IMG/VR virus record: IMGVR_UViG_3300032177_000026
Location: 1-43,648 of that record
Length of the DNA: 43,648 nucleotides
Strand: one strand, 5' to 3'
Origin: a virus
Shown here: positions 304 through 43,648 of the stretch, piece after piece
How the letters are laid out: the number at the start of each line of letters is the position of its first letter
Position numbering within the stretch: position 1 is the stretch's first letter
The notes under the pieces: generated by a model
The model's input: only the letters and a program-made list of their open reading frames with translations
Databases searched by the model: none
What the model was told of the DNA's origin: nothing
Translations under genes and position numbers: made by a program

Positions 304-2010
304 ATGAAAAAAATAATAATTATATTCTTTATACTTCTTTTAACCACTCCCTTATTTGCGGCAGACAGGAAAAAAATACCTTTAATCCCGACGGATGCGG
401 CATTGACTATTACTGCGGCTAAAACCGCCTCATTCGCTTATAATTTTACTCACACTGGAGCGGACATTACGCTAACTGGTTCAGGGACGAGTGTGTATAC
501 TTTTCCAGTATCTACATCTACTCTTGCCTCACTCACATTAGCAGAAACATTCACGAATAAAACTCTCACAAGCCCTATTTTAAACGGCAACGTCGGCATC
601 GGGACGACGGGACCGACGACGAAATTGTATCTTGGACTGGCATCTATTACCGATAATTCCAGCATATCGCTTGACAGGGGCGGTTCATGGGCTGTCACAT
701 CTGCTTATAACGTTTATCGGACAAATGGTTTTACCTATTGGGAAGCTGGTCTTGCTCCTGATTCCACCAACAATTTTCATTTGCGTAGATGGGACGGTTC
801 TACTTATCAGAGTGATGCGATGACGGTGTTATCAAGTACCGGCAACGTCGGCATCGGGACCACGAGTCCATGGGGCAGATTGTCAATCACAGGGGCGGGC
901 GCGACTTCTGCGACTTTTGGATTGGTTGTAGCCGATAGTGCGAATAGTCCTAAAATGGTAGTTAGAAACGACGGCAACGTCGGCATCGGGACGACGAGTC
1001 CAAGTTCGCCGTTGCAGGTTTATGGTAGCGGGACGGTAAACACAAATCCCGTTTTACAAGTCACTAACACCGCAAGTGCTGCTTATGTGCCTGGTTTTAC
1101 TGTTCTTGCTCCAAACCTTACTGCAGGGCAGGCAACATATTTCTCCTTTGGTCACGATGCATCTACAAATAATTTGGCCTCTATTCTGTTTACTTATGCG
1201 GGAAGTGGCAGCACGAGTAATAGGTTAGACTATAATTTCTTTGGTGGTAATCCGTTAATGTCAATCTTAGCGAACGGCAACGTCGGCATCGGGACGACTT
1301 CGCCTTGGGCAAAACTCTCGGTGGAAGGCACTTCGTCTTTGGGCAATGAAGCACGAGCTGGCTTCTTCACCGCCACCTCCACCACCGCGACTTCTACCTT
1401 TGCGGGGGGGCTGATTGTTGGAAACGGTGGTGGAACGAATGGGTTGACGGTGACAGGAAATGTGGGGGTGGGGACTACTACTCCAAGCCAACAATTATCT
1501 GTTCAAGGAAACGGTTTCTTTTCGGGAATTTTAAGAGCCATTGGAAACTTTATTTTTCCCAAATCTGCCGACCCTACTATTACCTTTGAGGGTGAAGCGG
1601 CAATTAACACCACCACAGCTTCATCATCACTCCGTTATTCTGACGGCACAGCAGAACGCTCACTCTATCCCGACAACGACAGATTTTTCTCTTTCGCTTC
1701 TTCAACCCTAACTTACGGCGGTGGTTATAGTGCCACAGGTTCAACCACACTATTGATGTTAAATCCCTCCCGTCCCATAACCTTAACCAGATTCTTTTGT
1801 AAAACTAATCTTGGAACAGCACAGGTTAGATTTGGAGACGGTTCGGCTTCAACCACAATGGCGACTTGTAATTCCGCAGGGGTTGAGGTTGTGTTGTCTG
1901 CTAATAATACTTGGGTAATGCGTGAGAATTTCTTAATAGAGGTCGGCAAACAAACGGATTCACCTGATTGGATATCTGTCACAGTTACGATACGTTCGGA
2001 TGCGGATTAA
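304..2010 (+). CDS. Exported fibre protein with GNVGIGTT repeats
   Basis: 568 aa. It opens with a clear signal peptide (MKKIIIIFFILLLTTPLFAA), followed by a long Thr/Ser/Gly-rich beta region. Five copies of a GNVGIGTTxP-type motif are each followed by a short beta segment such as KLSVEG. This repeat is common in tail fibres and in CPR surface proteins. The C-terminus (VTVTIRSDAD) looks natural. A GAGG ribosome site sits just upstream (ttttagaggcaat). The repeats are near-identical at DNA level, and bases 583-754 recur at the window end. The signal peptide is odd for a virion fibre, so host-surface display is an alternative. Signal and repeats are seen; the adhesin or fibre role is inferred. 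Confidence 0.75.
   Translation: MKKIIIIFFILLLTTPLFAADRKKIPLIPTDAALTITAAKTASFAYNFTHTGADITLTGSGTSVYTFPVSTSTLASLTLAETFTNKTLTSPILNGNVGIGTTGPTTKLYLGLASITDNSSISLDRGGSWAVTSAYNVYRTNGFTYWEAGLAPDSTNNFHLRRWDGSTYQSDAMTVLSSTGNVGIGTTSPWGRLSITGAGATSATFGLVVADSANSPKMVVRNDGNVGIGTTSPSSPLQVYGSGTVNTNPVLQVTNTASAAYVPGFTVLAPNLTAGQATYFSFGHDASTNNLASILFTYAGSGSTSNRLDYNFFGGNPLMSILANGNVGIGTTSPWAKLSVEGTSSLGNEARAGFFTATSTTATSTFAGGLIVGNGGGTNGLTVTGNVGVGTTTPSQQLSVQGNGFFSGILRAIGNFIFPKSADPTITFEGEAAINTTTASSSLRYSDGTAERSLYPDNDRFFSFASSTLTYGGGYSATGSTTLLMLNPSRPITLTRFFCKTNLGTAQVRFGDGSASTTMATCNSAGVEVVLSANNTWVMRENFLIEVGKQTDSPDWISVTVTIRSDAD
583..754 (+). repeat. 172-nt direct repeat, copy 1 (fibre cassette)
   Basis: This stretch is 169/172 identical to 43477-43648, by direct alignment. 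The three differences are C/T transitions; two change residues (LGL versus FGP) and one is silent. It lies inside a fibre gene and spans one GNVGIGTT motif plus the following LDRGGSW domain. Shared cassettes between fibre genes suggest recombination or recent duplication. Confidence 0.95.
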
Positions 2011-3523: not shown

Positions 3524-3841
3524 ATGGAATACACAAAAGTGAAAGTTGACGGTGTGGATAAGTTGGTGATAACAACGCCCCAGCCAGACAAGGAGGAAGT
3601 GATGACCTTGAATGAGTTGGAAGCGAATAAGGCAAGTATTGTCAGTCGGCGAGAGGCAATACAAGTCAAAGCAGATGAAGCGGTGAAGTGGCGCGCCGAT
3701 AACGAGGCGTGGTTCACAGCAGAGTTTGTTAAGTTGGACACAGAGGAAGCAAATGTAGACGCTCTGATTGCCAAAGCAAAGGAGCTGGGCGTAGAACCAG
3801 TGGCGGAAGTGGTCGTGGAGGAGGAAGTAATTACACCCTAA
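3524..3841 (+). CDS. Coiled-coil protein of the exit module
   Basis: 105 aa, acidic and rich in Ala, Glu and Lys. A central helical stretch (LNELEANKASIVSRREAIQV) looks like a coiled coil. There is no signal peptide or membrane segment. The ATG lies 1 nt after the preceding stop, and the stop overlaps the next ATG (TAATG), so it is translationally coupled to the membrane protein at 3841. I do not recognise a family. Position suggests a tail-associated or lysis-accessory protein. Confidence 0.6.
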   Translation: MEYTKVKVDGVDKLVITTPQPDKEEVMTLNELEANKASIVSRREAIQVKADEAVKWRADNEAWFTAEFVKLDTEEANVDALIAKAKELGVEPVAEVVVEEEVITP

Positions 3842-5861: not shown

Positions 5862-6053
5862 ATGTCGCAAGTAATTTTAGCTACTTTCGTGAACCTCGCA
5901 GTAACTCTTTTTCCTTTAATCGGTATTCAAGTTGGCGGCGATGACTTGACTAAGACGATTCAAGTTATTACCGCAATCGTAACTGGTGTTTGGATTTGGA
6001 TTCGCCGTGTCAAACAGGGAGATGTTTCGGTGTTAGGTATGAGGAAGGTTTAA
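5862..6053 (+). CDS. Holin-like membrane protein
   Basis: 63 aa with two hydrophobic segments (VILATFVNLAVTLFPLIGI and TIQVITAIVTGVWIWI) and a basic C-terminus (RRVKQGDVSVLGMRKV), the size and layout of small phage holins. It lies between the amidase and a lytic transglycosylase, which fits a role in permeabilising the membrane for lysis. The start is preceded by an A-rich leader (aatcattaaaaat) without a ribosome-binding purine box. Holins share little sequence, so the call rests on topology and context. Confidence 0.7.
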   Translation: MSQVILATFVNLAVTLFPLIGIQVGGDDLTKTIQVITAIVTGVWIWIRRVKQGDVSVLGMRKV

Positions 6054-6059
6054 TAACTT

Positions 6060-6503
6060 ATGAATAAACTATGGCTGGTGATTTTCCTCTTGATTTTCCC
6101 GACCATATCCGTAGCAAGCTCCGCTATCACGGAACCGGCTACAACAAGTATACCGGTAAGAAGTTGGTGCGGCTTTCAGGGGAGGGCGGTGGAGTGCCAG
6201 ATGGGGACGGACGGAATCTACCGCCCAACGACAGTGCAGTATTTGCTTCACCAATTCTTCGGTGAAGTTGAAGAGGAGGCACGGAAAATAGCGCGATGTG
6301 AAAGCAACTTTAATAACTCCGCAATAGGAAAGGCAGGAGAAATTGGAGTATTCCAAATCCACCCGGTTCATTTCAAGGAAGTTGAGAGTTTGAAACTTGA
6401 TTTGCACACCTTAGAGGGGAATTTTGCTTATAGCAGAATACTTTATAGCCGAGAGAGCTGGCAGCCGTGGAGCTGTGCCCGTCTAACCGGAGTAATAAAA
6501 TGA
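6060..6503 (+). CDS. Secreted lytic transglycosylase (SLT/lysozyme-like)
   Basis: 147 aa. A signal peptide (MNKLWLVIFLLIFPTISVAS) precedes a compact transglycosylase domain. The catalytic Glu is in ARCESNFNNSAIG (about residue 81), followed by GEIGVFQIHPVHF, the second conserved block of the SLT fold. The enzyme would cut the MurNAc-GlcNAc bond of peptidoglycan outside the membrane. Together with the amidase and holin-like protein it completes a lysis or entry set. It lies 6 nt after the holin gene, and its TGA overlaps the next ATG. Confidence 0.85.
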   Translation: MNKLWLVIFLLIFPTISVASSAITEPATTSIPVRSWCGFQGRAVECQMGTDGIYRPTTVQYLLHQFFGEVEEEARKIARCESNFNNSAIGKAGEIGVFQIHPVHFKEVESLKLDLHTLEGNFAYSRILYSRESWQPWSCARLTGVIK

Positions 6504-6610
6504 AACAACTTTTATACATCTTCCTTTTCGTAGCATTCACGATTGTATATCTGCCGATTGTTTTGGTTATAGGTTTTAGTAAACCTATTCATTGGTTGAA
6601 GATTACTTGA
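6500..6610 (+). CDS. 36-aa membrane protein
   Basis: MKQLLYIFLFVAFTIVYLPI begins a single hydrophobic helix, followed by a short basic tail (SKPIHWLKIT). It starts inside the transglycosylase stop (ATGA overlap), so it is translationally coupled to it. Position suggests an accessory lysis peptide such as an antiholin or minimal spanin, but no family is recognised. Confidence 0.55.
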   Translation: MKQLLYIFLFVAFTIVYLPIVLVIGFSKPIHWLKIT

Positions 6611-6847
6611 CAATTTTTTCTTTGAAAACTCCCATACCACCTCACCGGCTATAAATCTGAATCCTCCCATTGAGGATATCTCGTTTATCAGCGAGGGGGG
6701 CAAGTATTATCAATTCCCGTAGCGGTTAGTCCCCGTTGCGGTCTAAATGCTAATACTGAACTTTCACATCTCTCCGCTTAAGGTGGGGAGGTGGTATGGG
6801 GGTTGAAAATGTGATAAGATATATTAGTTCCTTTTTTATTTCCTGCC
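6611..6847. other. Non-coding stretch with small hairpins and a paired dyad repeat
   Basis: No convincing gene is seen here. A 6-bp hairpin, ATCCTC/GAGGAT, lies at 6661-6677. Two related elements with dyad symmetry, CCGTAGCGGT (6717-6726) and CCGTTGCGGT (6733-6742), start 16 nt apart and could be operator sites. The stretch separates the lysis genes from the zinc-finger gene and probably carries control signals. Confidence 0.4.
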
Positions 6848-6958
6848 GTGGCTGAACATTCCTTCGCAACGAGGAAAAAGCGCACAGACCATCCTAAAGG
6901 TGGCGAAGTGGCAAGCTGGTATAAAGATTCAAAGTTAGTTGCGACCAGCGTCCAATGA
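6848..6958 (+). CDS. Possible 36-aa basic peptide
   Basis: A GTG-started frame reads VAEHSFATRKKRTDHPKGGE and continues to ASWYKDSKLVATSVQ. The composition looks protein-like (basic centre, one Trp), but there is no ribosome site and no match to a known family. It sits alone in a non-coding region. Treat it as tentative. Confidence 0.25.
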   Translation: MAEHSFATRKKRTDHPKGGEVASWYKDSKLVATSVQ

Positions 6959-6990
6959 TTGATTCTAGACACAAACTTTTCATTGGCGGC

Positions 6991-7019
6991 AGGACATAGA
7001 ATGGGAAATGGTGTATAAT
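6991..7019 (+). promoter_or_regulatory. Promoter for the zinc-finger gene
   Basis: TATAAT at 7014-7019 is preceded by GGTG, as in the promoters at 7384 and 8904. A weak -35 (AGGACA, 6991-6996) lies 17 nt upstream. A proper AGGAGG ribosome site follows at about 7045, so this transcript has a leader. Confidence 0.5.
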
Positions 7020-7053
7020 ATTAGGCGGAAAACATCTTAACCAAAGGAGGGTT

Positions 7054-7242
7054 ATGAAAGTAGTTCGTTGCAGAAACTCTCGGTGTCGCAAACGAGGTTT
7101 GGAAAACCTGTTCGTCTGGCGGGATGGTCATCCATTCTGCGGGGCTCACTGCTACAATCAATGGATTCACCGGCATATCCGGCAACACTTCAACTTCAAA
7201 CTCATTGAGAGTTATTGGAATAAGTTGCGCGCCAGAGCGTAA
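7054..7242 (+). CDS. Small zinc-ribbon protein
   Basis: 62 aa. Four metal-ligand Cys sit as CRNSRC near the N-terminus and CGAHC in the middle, followed by a basic helical tail (WIHRHIRQHFNFKLIESYW). Such proteins often bind nucleic acid or RNA polymerase. It has one of the few strong ribosome sites in the window (aaaggaggg) and its own promoter and terminator, so it is a monocistronic gene. Its last codons form one arm of a 12-bp inverted repeat with 7325-7336. A regulator role is inferred. Confidence 0.7.
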   Translation: MKVVRCRNSRCRKRGLENLFVWRDGHPFCGAHCYNQWIHRHIRQHFNFKLIESYWNKLRARA

Positions 7243-7251
7243 GACACATCA

Positions 7252-7282
7252 GGGGGTTGATTATTCAGCCCCTTTTGTTATT
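7252..7282 (+). terminator. Rho-independent terminator of the zinc-ribbon gene
   Basis: The stem GGGGTTG (7253-7259) pairs with CAGCCCC (7266-7272), 7 bp with one G-T pair, around a 6-nt loop. TTTTGTTATT follows. Confidence 0.8.
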
Positions 7283-7317
7283 ATTTACACAGATGAACTT
7301 TAGGCATTAGTTGCGAG

Positions 7318-7350
7318 AAGCCGCCTTACGCTCTGGTTTGGCGGTTTTTC
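7318..7350 (+). terminator. Second terminator, just before the 7361 promoter
   Basis: AAGCCGCC (7318-7325) pairs with GGCGGTTT (7340-7347), with a T-run. The loop TTACGCTCTGG is complementary to CCAGAGCGTAA at the end of the upstream gene, so the loop could pair over a distance. Confidence 0.6.
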
Positions 7351-7355
7351 GTTTG

Positions 7356-7389
7356 CCTAGTTGCTTTTCCAGTTGCTTTGGTGTATAAT
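7356..7389 (+). promoter_or_regulatory. Paired-TTGC promoter P1
   Basis: The -35 TTGCTT (7361-7366) and -10 TATAAT (7384-7389) are 17 nt apart. AGTTGC occurs twice, at 7359 and 7371, 12 bp apart, overlapping the -35 and the spacer. The same layout recurs at 8876 and 15375. It drives the operon at 7399. Confidence 0.8.
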
Positions 7390-7398
7390 GACCGCGTT

Positions 7399-8358
7399 GT
7401 GTCTATCAAGTTAGAACCCTTTGGGGATAGCCCCATTTGGGAAACAGATAGTTATATAACCAAACTACGAAAACGGGTGTATTTAATGGTCGCTAAATTA
7501 GCCCGTAGTTCATCTATTAAATTTGACGAGCAAGACCTTGAACACCAAATTCTTTTTCGGGCAACCACCTTCCCCAAAAAGAAAATAAATTTGTCGGAAA
7601 TAATAAAAGAACAAAAGGAAATTGTTTTTGAGCGAATGAAAAAGGTGGACGTAAAACCAAAAGAACTTTTCTGTTTCGGTCTCTATCGCACAAATCACGG
7701 TTGGCAAATGGAATGGAGAACAACACAACTCTACGCGGTAAACAAAAACACCGGACAAAAAAAGAAAGTGTATTTTAGAGAGATTACAGATAGAAAAATA
7801 GGAAGTGATATTATAGAAAATTACCACTATATTCACTGCTCACGGAATAATGAAAATGGTTTAATGTTCGGTTTCTTTTTGGAAGATAGCAAAACACCAT
7901 TTGCGGTTGAACAAGTAGAACCCTGCTCTAATTCAAAGAATTATAAAAAAGCAATGTTGATGTTGAATGATATAAATTACCACTCCTGTTGTGAACTAAC
8001 GAGATTTTATTCTGTTCCCAATAGTCCTAAAAATCTTATCAGCATCTTGGATAGGTTGGTTGGAGAAGAATTGCGGAAAAAAGGTTTTGAGTGGATGATG
8101 ACCGCGACAATGCCTAAATACGCAAAAACAAAGGCCTCTACCGTTTCTGGCGGAATTGACAAACCAATCTTTGGAAAGAAAACACCCTTCACTTTCTTTG
8201 AACGCCCCGATGGAAAATATCAATTGTGTGTTTCGCGGAATAAGCCCAATGCCAAGACAATTACCAGCAGATGGGGAATAACCAAAACCATTGAATTTAT
8301 AAAACCCTTGGTCGGAAAATATAACAATGTCCAATTAGATTTTTATTTAATCAAATGA
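7399..8358 (+). CDS. GNAT-fold/Mom-like acyltransferase-related protein
   Basis: 319 aa from GTG 7399, which lies 9 nt after the -10 box; ATG 7486 is an alternative start. The C-terminal half (about residues 120-265) has FREITDRKIGSDIIENYHYI, a FGFFLEDSKTPFAVEQVEP beta pair and ELTRFYSVPNSPKNLISILD. This resembles the ELxRxWL...PxNS block of Mom-type DNA-modification and GNAT proteins. Known Mom proteins modify adenine in phage DNA to resist restriction. The match is partial and read by eye, so function is tentative. Its stop overlaps the CYTH gene start by 4 nt (ATGA), so the two are co-translated. Confidence 0.5.
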   Translation: MSIKLEPFGDSPIWETDSYITKLRKRVYLMVAKLARSSSIKFDEQDLEHQILFRATTFPKKKINLSEIIKEQKEIVFERMKKVDVKPKELFCFGLYRTNHGWQMEWRTTQLYAVNKNTGQKKKVYFREITDRKIGSDIIENYHYIHCSRNNENGLMFGFFLEDSKTPFAVEQVEPCSNSKNYKKAMLMLNDINYHSCCELTRFYSVPNSPKNLISILDRLVGEELRKKGFEWMMTATMPKYAKTKASTVSGGIDKPIFGKKTPFTFFERPDGKYQLCVSRNKPNAKTITSRWGITKTIEFIKPLVGKYNNVQLDFYLIK

Positions 8359-8861
8359 AAAAACTTGAAATAGAACTTAAATTCCCAGTGGTTAATCCAA
8401 GCGCTTTGATGACAAAAATTGATGGCCGGAAACCCGAAATAATGTATATCAAAGATGAGGTATTCAATAAAGGTAAAATGCCCAAAGTTAGAAAGCGCAC
8501 AATTAACTATTCAAACCGCGTAGAAGTGAGTTTTGAACGAACCACACCTATTCAAGGTGGCGTTATGAAAAAGGTTGTTGAAGAGAAAATAACCTCCCTG
8601 CCAAAAGGTTATGTTTGTAAAAATTCCTACGATAAAATTCGTTATGCCTATGTTCGGGGTGATTGTGTCATCACAATTGATTTTTATTGCTTTGGAGTTT
8701 TCTGTGAGATTGAGGGAAACGAGAAAGTCATCAAAGAAGTCGCCAAACGGCTTGGTTTCAAACTCAAAGACAATATTACAAAGAATGTGGACGCGCTTTT
8801 CTGTGATTGGTGTAAAAAGAGAAAAATTATTCCACCACTCCATTGGGGGTTTAGTAAATAG
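8355..8861 (+). CDS. CYTH-domain triphosphatase / adenylate cyclase-like protein
   Basis: 168 aa. The CYTH signature is clear: EIELKF at residues 5-10 (ExExK), KVRKR in the middle, KIRYAYVRGD and then FGVFCEIEGNEKVIKEVAKR. CYTH enzymes hydrolyse triphosphates (thiamine triphosphate, inorganic triphosphate, RNA 5' ends) or, in class IV, make cAMP, using Mg2+ in a beta-barrel tunnel. The substrate here is unknown. Coupling to the GNAT/Mom-like gene suggests a shared nucleotide or DNA-modification task, or a defence-related one. A length near 170 aa fits the family. Confidence 0.78.
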   Translation: MKKLEIELKFPVVNPSALMTKIDGRKPEIMYIKDEVFNKGKMPKVRKRTINYSNRVEVSFERTTPIQGGVMKKVVEEKITSLPKGYVCKNSYDKIRYAYVRGDCVITIDFYCFGVFCEIEGNEKVIKEVAKRLGFKLKDNITKNVDALFCDWCKKRKIIPPLHWGFSK

Positions 8862-8875: not shown

Positions 8876-8909
8876 CCTAGTTGCTAACCTAGTTGCTATG
8901 GTGTAAAAT
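8876..8909 (+). promoter_or_regulatory. Paired-TTGC promoter P2
   Basis: TTGCTA (8881-8886), 17-nt spacer, TAAAAT (8904-8909); AGTTGC at 8879 and 8891. It reads toward a terminator-like hairpin and then the small early genes. Confidence 0.75.
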
Positions 8910-8927
8910 GGTGGCAGTCGGGAAAAG

Positions 8928-9471: not shown

Positions 9472-9720
9472 ATGAAAAAGAAATTAACAAAAGTTAAATT
9501 TGAAGTTTATTATTACGAAAATAATAAAAAGATTTTAGGTATTCATAAAAGCATTTGGGGATATGTGAGCGGCATTCGGGGATATGTGAGCGGCATTCGG
9601 GGATATGTGAGCGGCATTTGGGGAGATGTGAGCGGCATTTGGGGAGATTTAGATTTGTGTGAAATTACAGTGGAAGACAGAAAGGTAGGAATTAAAATTG
9701 AAGATTTAATAGAAGAATAA
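9472..9720 (+). CDS. Protein with GYVSGIR heptad repeats
   Basis: 82 aa. A basic beta N-terminus (KLTKVKFEVYYYENNKK) leads into four copies of G-Y/D-VSGI-R/W and a closing GDLDLCEITVEDRKVGIKIE segment. Proteins with GDVSGIRGDVSGI repeats followed by a DLDxCEIT end occur in phages and are of unknown function; the repeats probably form a small beta-helix. Each heptad is encoded by a near-perfect 21-nt DNA repeat, so copy number could vary by slippage. Confidence 0.65.
   Translation: MKKKLTKVKFEVYYYENNKKILGIHKSIWGYVSGIRGYVSGIRGYVSGIWGDVSGIWGDLDLCEITVEDRKVGIKIEDLIEE
9559..9642 (+). repeat. 21-bp tandem repeat, 4 copies
   Basis: Units begin at 9559, 9580, 9601 and 9622. They are in frame, each encoding GYVSGIR or GDVSGIW. 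The only changes are CGG/TGG at the end of the unit and TAT/GAT at its second codon. Confidence 0.95.
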
Positions 9721-15361: not shown

Positions 15362-15408
15362 TTTTCCACAACACCCTAGTTGCCTTACCACTTGCTAGGT
15401 GATATAAT
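15362..15408 (+). promoter_or_regulatory. Paired-TTGC promoter P3 with DnaA-like box
   Basis: TTTTCCACA (15362-15370, one mismatch to TTATCCACA) is followed by AGTTGC (15378) and ACTTGC (15390), 12 bp apart. The -35 TTGCCT (15380-15385), 17-nt spacer and extended -10 TGATATAAT (TATAAT 15403-15408) precede ATG 15416 by 7 nt. Confidence 0.78.
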
Positions 15409-18266: not shown

Positions 18267-18846
18267 AGACAGAATTTTATCTCCTTCTGAACGGACAAAA
18301 CGCTGGAGGCAAAGACATCCGGAAGCAGTAAAAGAATATAAGAAAAAATATAGATTGGAGCATTTGGAACAAGAAAGGAAAAAAAATAATGAAAGAAATG
18401 TTAAACATAGATTATTACATCCTGAAATGGCAAGAGAGAGGTGGATAAGATGGAAGTATAAAGATGTTAAAACGGCAAGAGAAAAAGTAAATAGTTATCA
18501 TAAGAGTCGGTATTTCAATGATTTACAATTTCGTCTCGCAAGTCGTCTTCGTGGTCGTTTGAGTGATGCTTTAAGGATAGGTAAGAAAGAGAAAGTTGGT
18601 TCACACATTAGGTTTTTAGGATGTTCTTTGGAAGAATTAAAGACACACCTTCAAAATCAATTTAAGGAAGGAATGAGTTGGGATAATTATGGTAAAAATG
18701 GTTGGCACATTGACCACAAACAACCTTTATCAAGATTTGATTTGACCAATGATAGTCAGTTAGTAAAATTGTGCCATTTTACAAATTTACAACCCTTATG
18801 GGCAAAAGATAATATTATTAAAAGTAATAAATTTATTTATGAGTAA
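18247..18846 (+). CDS. HNH-type endonuclease (HNH 4) before groEL
   Basis: 199 aa. A long basic helical N-terminus (SERTKRWRQRHPEAVKEYKK, repeated as RHRLLHPEM-like units) is followed by a nuclease core: SLEELKTHLQNQFKEGMSWD, GWHIDHKQPLSRFDLT and LCHFTNLQPLWAKDNIIKSN. The His/Asp/Asn layout matches a phage HNH family. It overlaps the preceding gene by 20 nt and the groEL start by 8 nt, so groEL translation is coupled to it. A homing role is inferred from the family and its placement. Confidence 0.75.
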   Translation: MGTRIYKDRILSPSERTKRWRQRHPEAVKEYKKKYRLEHLEQERKKNNERNVKHRLLHPEMARERWIRWKYKDVKTAREKVNSYHKSRYFNDLQFRLASRLRGRLSDALRIGKKEKVGSHIRFLGCSLEELKTHLQNQFKEGMSWDNYGKNGWHIDHKQPLSRFDLTNDSQLVKLCHFTNLQPLWAKDNIIKSNKFIYE

Positions 18847-20542
18847 TAAGACCGAAGAAAAATTACACGGGGCGGCAAGGAAAGTTATAATAAAGGGGGT
18901 TAATAGAATTTATGATGCTGTTAGACTTTCTTTGGGTCCCGAAGGCGCTGGAGTTTTGATCTATCGTTCATTTAATCGGGGTTCAAGGATTACTCAAGAC
19001 GGTGTTACCATTGCTCAGGTAATAGAACCAAAAGATCATTTTGAGAATCTCGTGGCTATTGCTTTCAAAGAAGCGGCTGTTAAAACAGGTCAACGAGCTG
19101 GTGATGGAACAACTAGCACAATCGTATTAGCTGGTAAACTCATCAACGATGCTTTTTCTTCCCTTAAAGATGACACTGAAGTTCAGATCAGAGGAATGGA
19201 AAATAATAAAGTTGGAGCAATAACTCTAAAGAAGCATTTACTTGCTGAGATTCCTAAGATTAAAGAAAAGATTGCTGATCGAACTAAAAAGATAGAAACT
19301 CAAGAAGAATTAGAAAACATTGCTGATGTTTCTTTGGGTGGTAATCGTGAGGTGGCAAAGATTGTTTCAGAAATGATTTGGAAGACAGGAATAGATGGAT
19401 TTATAACTCTTGCTGATGGTTTTAAGGGATTTTTAGAAACCGAGACAATAGATGGAGCAAGATTTCCCATGAAGATATCAGCTCCTGTATTTCTAAATAA
19501 TCCCTCTAAGTTTGAAATGGTAGCAGAAGAGTGTGATGTGATAGTAACTAATTACTCCATAGATTCATTAAAAGATTTTGCTGATTTTTGGAATACAATA
19601 CGAAGGAATAAGCTGATAGTTTTTGCTCCTTCATTTTCAGATGAAGTTCTAATCCAAATGGTTAAACTAATAGCTCCCAAATCAATGCCCAATGGAGGAA
19701 TGATGCCATCGGGTGTTCAGATATTTCCAGTTAAGTGTCCATCTCTCCGGACAGATCAACTAGATGATTTAGCAACATTCTGTGGAGCTAAGTTCATAGA
19801 TAAAAACAAAGGTGACGTTCTAAAAAACATCAAGGAATATGATCTAGGTTTTCTAGACAAAGCAATAATCAAAAGCGTAGAGGGAAAAGAAGACGCTGTT
19901 CTATTGGGAGGTAAAGGAGCGAAAGAAGGCAAGGTAGGAGATAGAATAGAAATGTTAAGAGGTCAATTAGTAGAAACTAAAATGCCAGAACATCAAGCAT
20001 TGGTTAAAAAGAGAATTGCCTCTTTAGCATCAGCCGGTGGAGTGATTAGAGTAGGAGCTCCAACGGAAGCAGAAGCATTACCTCTCAAACACAAAATAGA
20101 TGACGCTGTATTCGCTTGCCAACAAGCTCTAAGATTTGGTTATGTAAAAGGTGGTGGATTGTGCTTAAAGGAAATAGCAGAGGAATTCTATAGAGATGAT
20201 TCACTTATTCACGATGCATTATGTGCACCAAACAATCAAATCAAAGAAAACGTGGGTGGAGAATTAACAATTGAAGATAACATTATAGACCCAGCCAAAG
20301 TAGTGGAATTAGAGGTCGAACACGGCTTTGGTGTAGCGGCTAACTTAATTACCTGTAAAGCAATCATTCCAGAGTTCGACGAAAGAGATCCAAAGGAAAA
20401 TTATCGAGGAATAGCTGAAGCAATACTAATTTACACTAAACTTTTTGCCAAGAGAGAAGGATTGTATCAGGGAGGATTAAGTGAAGCCGAAGCAGAACGT
20501 CTCCAGAGACAAGAATTTTTAATGGATAAAGAAAACGACTAA
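18839..20542 (+). CDS. groEL: GroEL-like chaperonin (phage-encoded)
   Basis: 567 aa. The ATPase motifs are intact: LGPEGAGVLIYRSF, RITQDGVTIAQ (Asp 54), GQRAGDGTTSTIVLAG (Asp 89) and, late in the protein, HKIDDAVFACQQALRFGYVK with GGGLCLKEIAEE. The bacterial GGM tail is absent. The apical and intermediate domains are divergent and no GroES gene is seen. Phage GroELs are known to fold capsid proteins in some giant and Pseudomonas phages. Here it lies between HNH 4 and the packaging genes, so a role in capsid or tail folding is likely. It may cooperate with host GroES or function alone. Confidence 0.92.
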   Translation: MSNKTEEKLHGAARKVIIKGVNRIYDAVRLSLGPEGAGVLIYRSFNRGSRITQDGVTIAQVIEPKDHFENLVAIAFKEAAVKTGQRAGDGTTSTIVLAGKLINDAFSSLKDDTEVQIRGMENNKVGAITLKKHLLAEIPKIKEKIADRTKKIETQEELENIADVSLGGNREVAKIVSEMIWKTGIDGFITLADGFKGFLETETIDGARFPMKISAPVFLNNPSKFEMVAEECDVIVTNYSIDSLKDFADFWNTIRRNKLIVFAPSFSDEVLIQMVKLIAPKSMPNGGMMPSGVQIFPVKCPSLRTDQLDDLATFCGAKFIDKNKGDVLKNIKEYDLGFLDKAIIKSVEGKEDAVLLGGKGAKEGKVGDRIEMLRGQLVETKMPEHQALVKKRIASLASAGGVIRVGAPTEAEALPLKHKIDDAVFACQQALRFGYVKGGGLCLKEIAEEFYRDDSLIHDALCAPNNQIKENVGGELTIEDNIIDPAKVVELEVEHGFGVAANLITCKAIIPEFDERDPKENYRGIAEAILIYTKLFAKREGLYQGGLSEAEAERLQRQEFLMDKEND

Positions 20543-20543
20543 T

Positions 20544-20744
20544 ATGCCATACTCAGCAGTAAATAGATTGAAATATGCTTTCAAGAAATGGGTTACACGA
20601 ACAGAACCATTTCGTAAACAAGCAGATGAGATGATGAATCAAAAATATCCCCAAGGTTGGCAGAAAGGAATGACAAACTCCCTAAAGCAGATGGAGCACT
20701 CTAAAATGATGACTCAGTTGTATAGACAGAGTAAGAAGAAATGA
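20544..20744 (+). CDS. 66-aa basic protein downstream of groEL
   Basis: MPYSAVNRLKYAFKKWVTRT, then FRKQADEMMNQKYPQGWQKG and a Lys-rich end (LYRQSKKK). Strongly basic, helical, with no motif. It starts 1 nt after groEL and overlaps the ParB-methyltransferase gene by 4 nt. It may bind DNA or assist the chaperonin; unsupported beyond position. Confidence 0.6.
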   Translation: MPYSAVNRLKYAFKKWVTRTEPFRKQADEMMNQKYPQGWQKGMTNSLKQMEHSKMMTQLYRQSKKK

Positions 20745-21931
20745 TTGAAGTTGCGCTTGATAAAATAACTCCGTATTCAAAGAATGCTAAACAGCACCCA
20801 CGAAAACAAATCCAGCAAATAGCGGAGAGCATTAGAGAGTTTGGTTTCAACCAGCCCCTTGTGGTTGACAAAGACAATGTGATTATAGTTGGACATGGCA
20901 GATATGAAGCGGCTAAATTACTGAACCTTGACAAAGTGCCTGTATTAAAAGTTAATCTCTCCAAAAAGAAAGCCAAAGCATACCGATTAGCCGACAATAA
21001 ATTAAACGAATCAGAGTGGGATATGGAAATGGTTATAGAGGAATTGAAGGCGTTGGAAGATGAAGCTTTGAAAATGAATACTGGATTTGAGGATTTTATC
21101 CTGAACAATAGAAAGGATTTTATAACAGATCATTGGAACAACGATTTTTCAAATCCTGATGGTATTGATGAAAGATTAGGTTATTATGGAGGAAGTTTTT
21201 GGAAAGATTTAAGAAAAGAAAGTGCCGAAACTTGGAATTATTTTTTACCACTGCCATTTAACACAAAAGAAAATAGGTTAGGAGGAAATAGGCAAAAAAT
21301 TCGTTATTCAAGAACCAATCCATTAGAGATTGAAAGAATTGTAAAAACTTATATGCGTGAAGGAGATTACTTTTTAGAAAGTTGTGTTGGTTGGGCAACC
21401 TTTAGTAGGGTAGCAAAATTTTATGGTTACAATGGGGTGGGTGTAGATATTTGGGAAACAAGTTTAACTTATTGTGAAGAACAATTGAAAAAGATTCAAG
21501 GAACAGGAAAGGTAGAAATTAAAAAAATGGATGCTCTTAATTTGGAATTTCCAGATAATACTTTTGATTTTGTTTATTGTAATCCACCATTTTTTAATTT
21601 AGAGGGATATAAAAAAACGCCAGATGATTTATCAGTTAATAAAAGTTATGATGAATGGTTAGGAAAAATGAAGAAACTAACTTATGAATGTTATAGAGTT
21701 TTGAAGAATGATAAGTTGGCGGTATTTACAATGGCTGATTTTAGAGTTGGTGGATATTTAGTTGATGCCACAAATGAATGGATGAAGATTTCAAAAGAAG
21801 TTGGTTTTAAGTTATGGGATTATGTAGTAGCAGAAGTTAGAAGTATGAATCTTGCTCAAAGAAAAAAAGCTTACGAATTAAAGAGAACAGTTAAATGCCA
21901 CGAGAATGTTTTAGTTTTCAAAAAGCAATAA
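20741..21931 (+). CDS. ParB/Srx-domain DNA methyltransferase fusion
   Basis: 396 aa. The N-terminal ParB-like nuclease domain (about 1-100) shows ITPYSKNAKQHPRKQIQQIA, FNQPLVVDKDNVIIVGHGRY and AAKLLNLDKVPVLKVNLS. The C-terminal methyltransferase has a SAM pocket (YFLESCVGWATFSRVAKFYG, NGVGVDI) followed by NPPF in FVYCNPPFFNLEGY, the catalytic motif of amino-methyltransferases (adenine N6 or cytosine N4). Such fusions are common in phages and probably mark or protect phage DNA before packaging. It is the last gene before the terminase promoter. Confidence 0.85.
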   Translation: MIEVALDKITPYSKNAKQHPRKQIQQIAESIREFGFNQPLVVDKDNVIIVGHGRYEAAKLLNLDKVPVLKVNLSKKKAKAYRLADNKLNESEWDMEMVIEELKALEDEALKMNTGFEDFILNNRKDFITDHWNNDFSNPDGIDERLGYYGGSFWKDLRKESAETWNYFLPLPFNTKENRLGGNRQKIRYSRTNPLEIERIVKTYMREGDYFLESCVGWATFSRVAKFYGYNGVGVDIWETSLTYCEEQLKKIQGTGKVEIKKMDALNLEFPDNTFDFVYCNPPFFNLEGYKKTPDDLSVNKSYDEWLGKMKKLTYECYRVLKNDKLAVFTMADFRVGGYLVDATNEWMKISKEVGFKLWDYVVAEVRSMNLAQRKKAYELKRTVKCHENVLVFKKQ

Positions 21932-42504: not shown

Positions 42505-43648
42505 ATGAAACACTTAAAAAATATCTTGATAATCGTCTTACTATTTTTCCTCGTGGGTTTTGCCTTAACCGCCTTTTTCTATCCGTCATTGACATTCGGA
42601 GCGCCGACCTCAACATATATGCGCACGATTCTACCTGAACTCTCCAACACTTATTGGTTAGGTAGTTCTGCCAATGTGTGGAATAAACTCTTTGTCAATT
42701 ATGCTTCCACTACTGCTCTGTCAGTTTCAGGACAACTTAATGGTTGCGCTCAATTTGATGCAAATGGTGGATTGATCACAACAGGAGTTGCGTGTGGTTC
42801 TGGCACCGGCTCCGGCTTCTCCACCACCTCCGCTCTATACTGGCTTCAAAGCACCACCTCACCACTAACGGTATCTTGGTTAAACGCCACCTCCACCACG
42901 GCGACTTCTACCTTTGCGGGGGGAATGAGTGTAGCGGGAACGGCGGGACTGAACGTTTTGCAGAATGGAAGAGTGGGGATTGGGACGACGGCGCCTGGGG
43001 AAAAGTTAACAGTTGATTCTGGAAATATAAGCTTTACTACCGCTGGACAATATGGACTTAAGTGGCCTGGAGGTTCTAGGCTTTATGAACAAACAACTGC
43101 TCAAGGTGGTCAGGAAAGAATGCTTTATCAGTCAAACGGCGATTGGTTTGATGTGTTAAATGAAGCAGGAAATTATTTCTTAGCAACTATTAAATATAAC
43201 CAGACTTCATTTTATACTGGCTCTACTGTTGGTGGCGCTACAACGGAAAGGTTACGAATCAATAGCGACGGCAACGTCGGCATCGGGACGACGAGTCCGT
43301 ATGCCAGACTTAGTGTGGAGGGAAGCTCGGCGCTTGGCAACTCCGCTCTGGCTGGATATTTCATCGGGACAACGACAACGGCCACCAGCACATTGGCAGG
43401 CGGACTGACGGTTGGGAATAATTCTGCCTTCGTGGTCAACCAAGCGGCTACGGCGAATAGTTTGGTGATAACAAATAACGGCAATGTCGGCATCGGGACG
43501 ACGGGACCGACGACGAAATTGTATTTTGGACCGGCATCTATTACCGATAATTCCAGCATATCGCTTGACAGGGGCGGTTCATGGGCTGTCACATCTGCTT
43601 ATAACGTTTATCGGACAAATGGTTTTACCTATTGGGAAGCTGGTCTTG
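42505..43648 (+). CDS. Exported GNVGIGTT fibre protein, N-terminal part
   Basis: The open frame runs off the window after 381 codons. A signal or anchor (ILIIVLLFFLVGFALTAFFY) is followed by WLGSSANVWNKLFVNYASTT, a Gly/Ser region and repeats NGRVGIGTTAP, DGNVGIGTTSP and NGNVGIGTTGP, with ATSTTATSTFAGG linkers typical of Parcubacteria proteins. The last 172 nt nearly duplicate bases 583-754. Function as adhesin or fibre is inferred. The window end within this repeat may be an assembly break. Confidence 0.8.
   Translation, partial: MKHLKNILIIVLLFFLVGFALTAFFYPSLTFGAPTSTYMRTILPELSNTYWLGSSANVWNKLFVNYASTTALSVSGQLNGCAQFDANGGLITTGVACGSGTGSGFSTTSALYWLQSTTSPLTVSWLNATSTTATSTFAGGMSVAGTAGLNVLQNGRVGIGTTAPGEKLTVDSGNISFTTAGQYGLKWPGGSRLYEQTTAQGGQERMLYQSNGDWFDVLNEAGNYFLATIKYNQTSFYTGSTVGGATTERLRINSDGNVGIGTTSPYARLSVEGSSALGNSALAGYFIGTTTTATSTLAGGLTVGNNSAFVVNQAATANSLVITNNGNVGIGTTGPTTKLYFGPASITDNSSISLDRGGSWAVTSAYNVYRTNGFTYWEAGL
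43477..43648 (+). repeat. 172-nt direct repeat, copy 2 (fibre cassette)
   Basis: It matches 583-754 with three C/T differences and continues to the window edge, so its true right end is unknown. Confidence 0.95.

Follow-up and report, generated by a model that had tools for sequence, protein, structure and literature searches.

The Mom family (Pfam PF25680) belongs to the GNAT superfamily and includes phage Mu Mom, which modifies DNA bases directly. CYTH proteins, or triphosphate tunnel metalloenzymes (PF01928), form a family that acts on triphosphates, and Ham1 proteins form an enzyme family that acts on NTPs. In the hypermodification pathways known from phages, a modifying enzyme works together with an NMP kinase and a hydrolase of the unmodified dNTP, and the inactivation of antibiotics is common among GNATs. 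The CYTH superfamily takes in RNA triphosphatases, and motif rules separate its triphosphatases, cyclases and thiamine triphosphatases (PMC8233210). SaTTM (Saci_0718), the solved CYTH structure nearest to the protein described here, prefers inorganic triphosphate over NTPs (PMC8233210). A jumbo-phage survey, in its passages on these genes, records both superfamilies in phages and proposes a role in modified nucleotides, but it treats Mom and CYTH separately, its Mom domains are typically fused to nucleases, and those passages contain no Mom–CYTH pair or fusion (PMC7824862). Among the open-licence papers searched, Mom and CYTH were found together only in that survey and no pair or fusion was described, in agreement with the first-pass annotation, which knew of no phage system pairing the two.

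The window, the whole stretch of DNA analysed here, is a 43.6-kb IMG/VR virus record with genes for terminase, capsid, Prim-Pol/DnaB and tail fibre. It contains a two-gene cassette in which a Mom-like protein is paired with a CYTH enzyme.

Organization of the cassette

The cassette and its flanking elements are as follows.

7251..7274, + strand: terminator-like hairpin upstream of the cassette (hairpin scan; such sites are no more numerous in the region than expected by chance)
7361..7390, + strand: putative TTGC-type promoter of the cassette, TTGCTT, 17 nt and TATAAT, TTGCTTTTCCAGTTGCTTTGGTGTATAATG (sequence read)
7399..8358, + strand: predicted Mom-like GNAT-type acyltransferase, 319 aa, GTG start (ORF, Pfam, profile comparison, alignment)
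8355..8358, + strand: ATGA stop-start overlap of the GNAT and CYTH genes (sequence read)
8355..8861, + strand: predicted CYTH triphosphate tunnel enzyme, 168 aa, ATG start (ORF, motifs, profiles)
8881..8910, + strand: second promoter copy just downstream of the cassette (one mismatch to the 7361–7390 copy)

The 4-nt overlap and the separate TTGC promoter reported in the first-pass annotation are both present: the two genes share ATGA, and the promoter sequence upstream of the GNAT gene recurs almost identically behind the CYTH gene. Two matches to this sequence occurred in none of 100 shuffles, and there is a third, looser copy at 15375; the promoter matches of a simple sigma-70 scan were not above chance. 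The GNAT start at 7399 is backed by a homologue in a second virus (L185), which begins at the same place. The pair is absent from the related viral contigs found via the terminase, records that may be fragments, and the cassette thus behaves like an accessory one. Within the window, no kinase or DNA methyltransferase gene adjoins the cassette, and a ParB-methyltransferase gene lies 12 kb away.

The first protein is a divergent relative of Mom

The PF25680 profile matches the window GNAT protein with an E value of 1.1e-4 and 22.3 bits, under the 27.1-bit cut-off. A patescibacterial intermediate (L144) passes that cut-off with 29.7 bits and matches the window GNAT protein (E = 7e-10, in a small database), which closes the homology chain to Mom. 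Moreover, a profile–profile comparison of the GNAT family with 12 phage Moms gave P = 1.8e-5, the match covering the initial part of the Mom domain. The HY and ELxR motifs of Mom are kept in the window protein when it is aligned with phage Moms, and the order of the surrounding conserved blocks is alike. The block resembling Mom that was first noticed in this gene is borne out by the sub-threshold Pfam match, the profile match, the L144 link and the two retained motifs.

Where Moms have the block S[FY]AD...GTIYQASNF, the GNAT family has TxxMPxYxKTKxxTxxGG. The Asp of S[FY]AD and the Tyr of GTIYQASNF are invariant in the phage Moms compared, whereas in a MAFFT alignment all eight family members carry Met and Ser/Ala at these positions. 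Ordinary Mom chemistry is thus doubtful, and the DNA adenine modification of the Mom type that had been considered for this gene is not supported as stated. The window protein also differs from Mom in an N-terminal extension with QDLEHQxLF, and its branch comes with a CYTH enzyme, either as a partner or in one fused protein. By these comparisons, the GNAT family is a divergent sister branch next to the Mom family and not an ordinary Mom. Given the two missing residues, the window protein may rely on a different donor or have no catalytic activity.

A GNAT fold is predicted for the first protein from its homology to Mom. A PDB profile search with this protein gave no meaningful match, and an AlphaFold2 model built on a two-sequence alignment (pLDDT 42.6) was too poor for use. 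A Mom family search over a sample of Patescibacteria placed only one genome above the cut-off. One further candidate, L145 (G353, E = 0.006), appears to be a false match; its ORF resembles a nucleotidyltransferase.

The second protein is predicted to be a CYTH triphosphatase

A Pfam search with the window CYTH protein itself gave no direct CYTH match. PF01928 is passed by a homologue (L148, 56.6 bits) and by a fused relative (L172, 24.1 bits against a cut-off of 23.2). A profile of standalone CYTH relatives matches Saci_0718 with an E value of 1.9e-23, and the profile of the viral and fused CYTHs matches that of the standalone relatives at 99.7%. The second protein contains the CYTH blocks ExExK, RxR, ExE, KIRYxY and DFY..G.F.EIEG in the general motif order of the superfamily. 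The ExExK motif (E5, E7 and K9) is invariant in split and fused members, and RxR (R46 and R48) and the late ExE metal motif (E118 and E120) are present. Motifs, Pfam-passing homologues and the profile match agree with the original assignment of this gene to the CYTH enzymes. An AlphaFold2 model of the CYTH protein alone was unusable (pLDDT 32).

The published motif rules predict that the window CYTH is a triphosphatase (PMC8233210). Class IV adenylyl cyclase (CyaB) is characterized by HFxxxxExExK and by an Ala in place of the second Glu of ExE, but the window protein has no HF and keeps Glu120. Thiamine triphosphatases have W/YxRxR, in place of which the window protein has KVRKR and the L185 protein KIRKR, so a lysine occupies the W/Y position. 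On these motifs, identification as a cyclase or as a thiamine triphosphatase was rejected. Since the hydrolase ExE and RxR are kept and the cyclase HF motif is absent, the making of a nucleotide-derived signal, one of the tasks initially suggested for the pair, becomes less likely as far as cyclic nucleotides are concerned. Given the preference of SaTTM, nucleotides are not necessarily the substrate of the window CYTH. The protein also departs from the superfamily in its setting, being the downstream partner or the C-terminal half of a GNAT-like protein.

CYTH domains also occur in other patescibacterial settings. A 652-aa protein (L176 70–2028) combines adenylate kinase, GTP cyclohydrolase II and CYTH domains, and GTP cyclohydrolase II lies beside CYTH in a second genome (L161 1444–2400).

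Conservation and fusion of the pair

Conservation of the pair, set beforehand as one of two points on which the initial proposal could fall, was found in a virus and in bacteria. In L185, a 76.8-kb virus, a GNAT gene (5992–6936) is followed by a CYTH gene (6927–7439) in the same order as in the window; the GNAT proteins are 54% and the CYTH proteins 51% identical. Comparison of 12.9 kb of L185 with the window proteins gave nothing beyond the pair and one marginal match, and L185 is apparently otherwise unrelated to the window virus. Three DNA-methyltransferase-like genes come after the pair in L185.

In three Patescibacteria genomes (L142, L143 and L172), drawn from three separately searched classes, GNAT and CYTH form one protein of ∼530 aa. 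The L143 fusion, a single ORF of more than 520 aa, was found at the same locus with GNAT (380 Patescibacteria genomes) and with CYTH (287). The L172 fusion lies on a 634-kb chromosomal contig, and the L143 contig carries an HU-like gene and thus also looks chromosomal. No methyltransferase genes were found near the fusions on their chromosomal contigs. In the CYTH tree, the viral and fused members cluster apart from the sampled standalone CYTHs with support of 94/94, which points to one old association. The GNAT tree, whose nodes are open here, allows for a split viral pair derived from a fusion as well as for the reverse.

The family is rare, with members in six bacterial genomes among roughly 1,200 searched. 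Single-protein searches with the window proteins over viral contigs, genomes, phages and plasmids gave no match, and neither did the alignment scans before the last. The relatives were reached only by whole-genome searches in Patescibacteria and then by a seven-row alignment scan of viral contigs, which led to L185.

Exchange of CYTH for Ham1 and kinase-like partners

Members of the same GNAT family, 32–36% identical to the window protein, occur in two operons of Patescibacteria (L178 and L180) in which a P-loop kinase-like gene is followed by the GNAT gene and a Ham1-family gene. The GNAT stop and Ham1 start overlap by ATGA, as the GNAT and CYTH genes do in the window, so that the NTP-hydrolysing partner is joined by the same 4-nt overlap; these operons differ in having Ham1 instead of CYTH and an additional kinase-like gene. 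L179 is an interrupted version: kinase-like sequence precedes the GNAT gene, and the Ham1-like gene that comes after it is broken and lies on the opposite strand. A more distant relative, a 653-aa protein with cytidylate-kinase-like and Mom-like domains (L164 1150–3111), adjoins genes resembling Ham1 and endonuclease III, and more distant Mom-like genes also adjoin Ham1-like genes. One acyltransferase thus seems to have two alternative NTP-hydrolysing partners, CYTH and Ham1. Both families act on triphosphates, which makes nucleotide triphosphates their common theme.

A nucleotide-level module and its alternatives

We tentatively favour the reading that the two genes together specify a single bipartite enzyme module that combines nucleotide-level acylation with triphosphate removal, in the virus perhaps against host defence. 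The first protein, a GNAT-type acyltransferase, would modify a nucleotide, and the second, a metal-dependent triphosphatase, would take the terminal phosphate off a (d)NTP or off a triphosphate derived from a nucleotide, with both enzymes sharing a small-molecule nucleotide substrate or using linked ones. The triphosphatase might clear an unmodified competing triphosphate, or it might trim the triphosphate so that the product can be modified or used. The most likely viral purpose would be a modified nucleotide for the virus's own DNA, or an altered host nucleotide, as a shield from host defence. The sequences themselves establish the homology, the conserved pairing, the fusion and the interchange with kinase-like and Ham1 partners; the acyltransferase chemistry, the nucleotide substrate and the anti-defence purpose are our inference.

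The module reading draws on the pair in L185 in the same order and the three single-polypeptide fusions, on the clustering of viral with fused CYTHs, on the Ham1 operons, the L164 fusion and the Mom-like genes beside Ham1-like genes, on the standalone CYTH relatives with adenylate kinase or GTP cyclohydrolase II and the CYTH motif rules, and on the methyltransferase-like genes behind the L185 pair. The gene sets observed (GNAT, kinase-like, and CYTH or Ham1) fit the hypermodification pattern, which also counts for it. The two missing Mom residues, the window cassette lacking an adjoining kinase or methyltransferase gene, the SaTTM preference and the rarity of the family speak against it. It is possible, if somewhat doubtful, that the proteins represent a new family of bifunctional acyltransferase–triphosphatase modules that make an acylated nucleotide, common to Patescibacteria and their viruses, with an interchangeable NTP-hydrolysing half (CYTH, or Ham1 with a kinase-like protein); such a family would amount to a previously undescribed pathway of nucleotide modification.

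The main rival to the nucleotide-level module is that the proteins remove or inactivate a nucleotide-derived host signal or a nucleotide or nucleoside antibiotic, the triphosphate being stripped and the rest acylated, as viral counter-defence and bacterial detoxification. The sporadic spread over host chromosomes and viruses, the triphosphate-cutting partners of two unrelated folds and the frequency with which GNATs inactivate antibiotics would suit such a role, but the kinase-like gene in the Ham1 operons suggests that a product is built and not merely destroyed, and no PADLOC defence profile matched the GNAT or CYTH protein; we consider this role rather unlikely. Direct modification of DNA bases by the GNAT protein, as by phage Mu Mom, with an auxiliary CYTH that aids the reaction or removes a by-product, for protection from restriction, appears improbable. 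It would account for the Mom homology with HY and ELxR and for the methyltransferase-like genes beside the L185 pair, whereas the loss of the invariant Asp and Tyr throughout the family, partner enzymes that act on free triphosphates and fusions on chromosomal contigs away from methyltransferase genes all disfavour it. Action on RNA, in which CYTH would take off the 5' gamma phosphate and GNAT would acylate RNA or tRNA, is very unlikely: some CYTH proteins are RNA triphosphatases (PMC8233210), but replacement by Ham1, an enzyme family of free NTPs, does not fit, and Pfam recognized no RNA-binding domain.

Gene fusion and partner swapping tie the Mom-like acyltransferase branch to nucleotide-triphosphate enzymes and make a strong case, at the level of sequence, for a shared pathway. 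Should the module act on nucleotides, it would give a new way of producing modified nucleotides to a bacterial phylum and its viruses in which hardly any gene function has been tested. The single-chain fusion makes the module directly testable.

Host and other features of the window

The homologues in Patescibacteria, together with GNVGIGTTSP tail-fibre repeats common to many Patescibacteria genomes, though to other groups too, suggest a patescibacterial host. These repeats lie at both ends of the window (304–2010 and 42964–43648) in near identical DNA, and the repeat DNA is also found in many Patescibacteria and other groundwater genomes.

A GroEL-like chaperonin gene (18839–20542; Cpn60_TCP1, E = 3e-23) lies just upstream of the ParB-methyltransferase and terminase genes, and three related viral contigs have chaperonin homologues with 27–34% identity near their terminase. 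The ParB-methyltransferase gene (20741–21931), in the packaging region, encodes a protein that joins a ParB-like domain with an N6/N4 DNA methyltransferase domain. Short repeat proteins are encoded in both viruses, at 9472–9720 in the window (21-nt DNA repeats) and at 3574–3822 in L185 (pentapeptide-like repeats), and the window repeat protein has a homologue in a related contig (G002).
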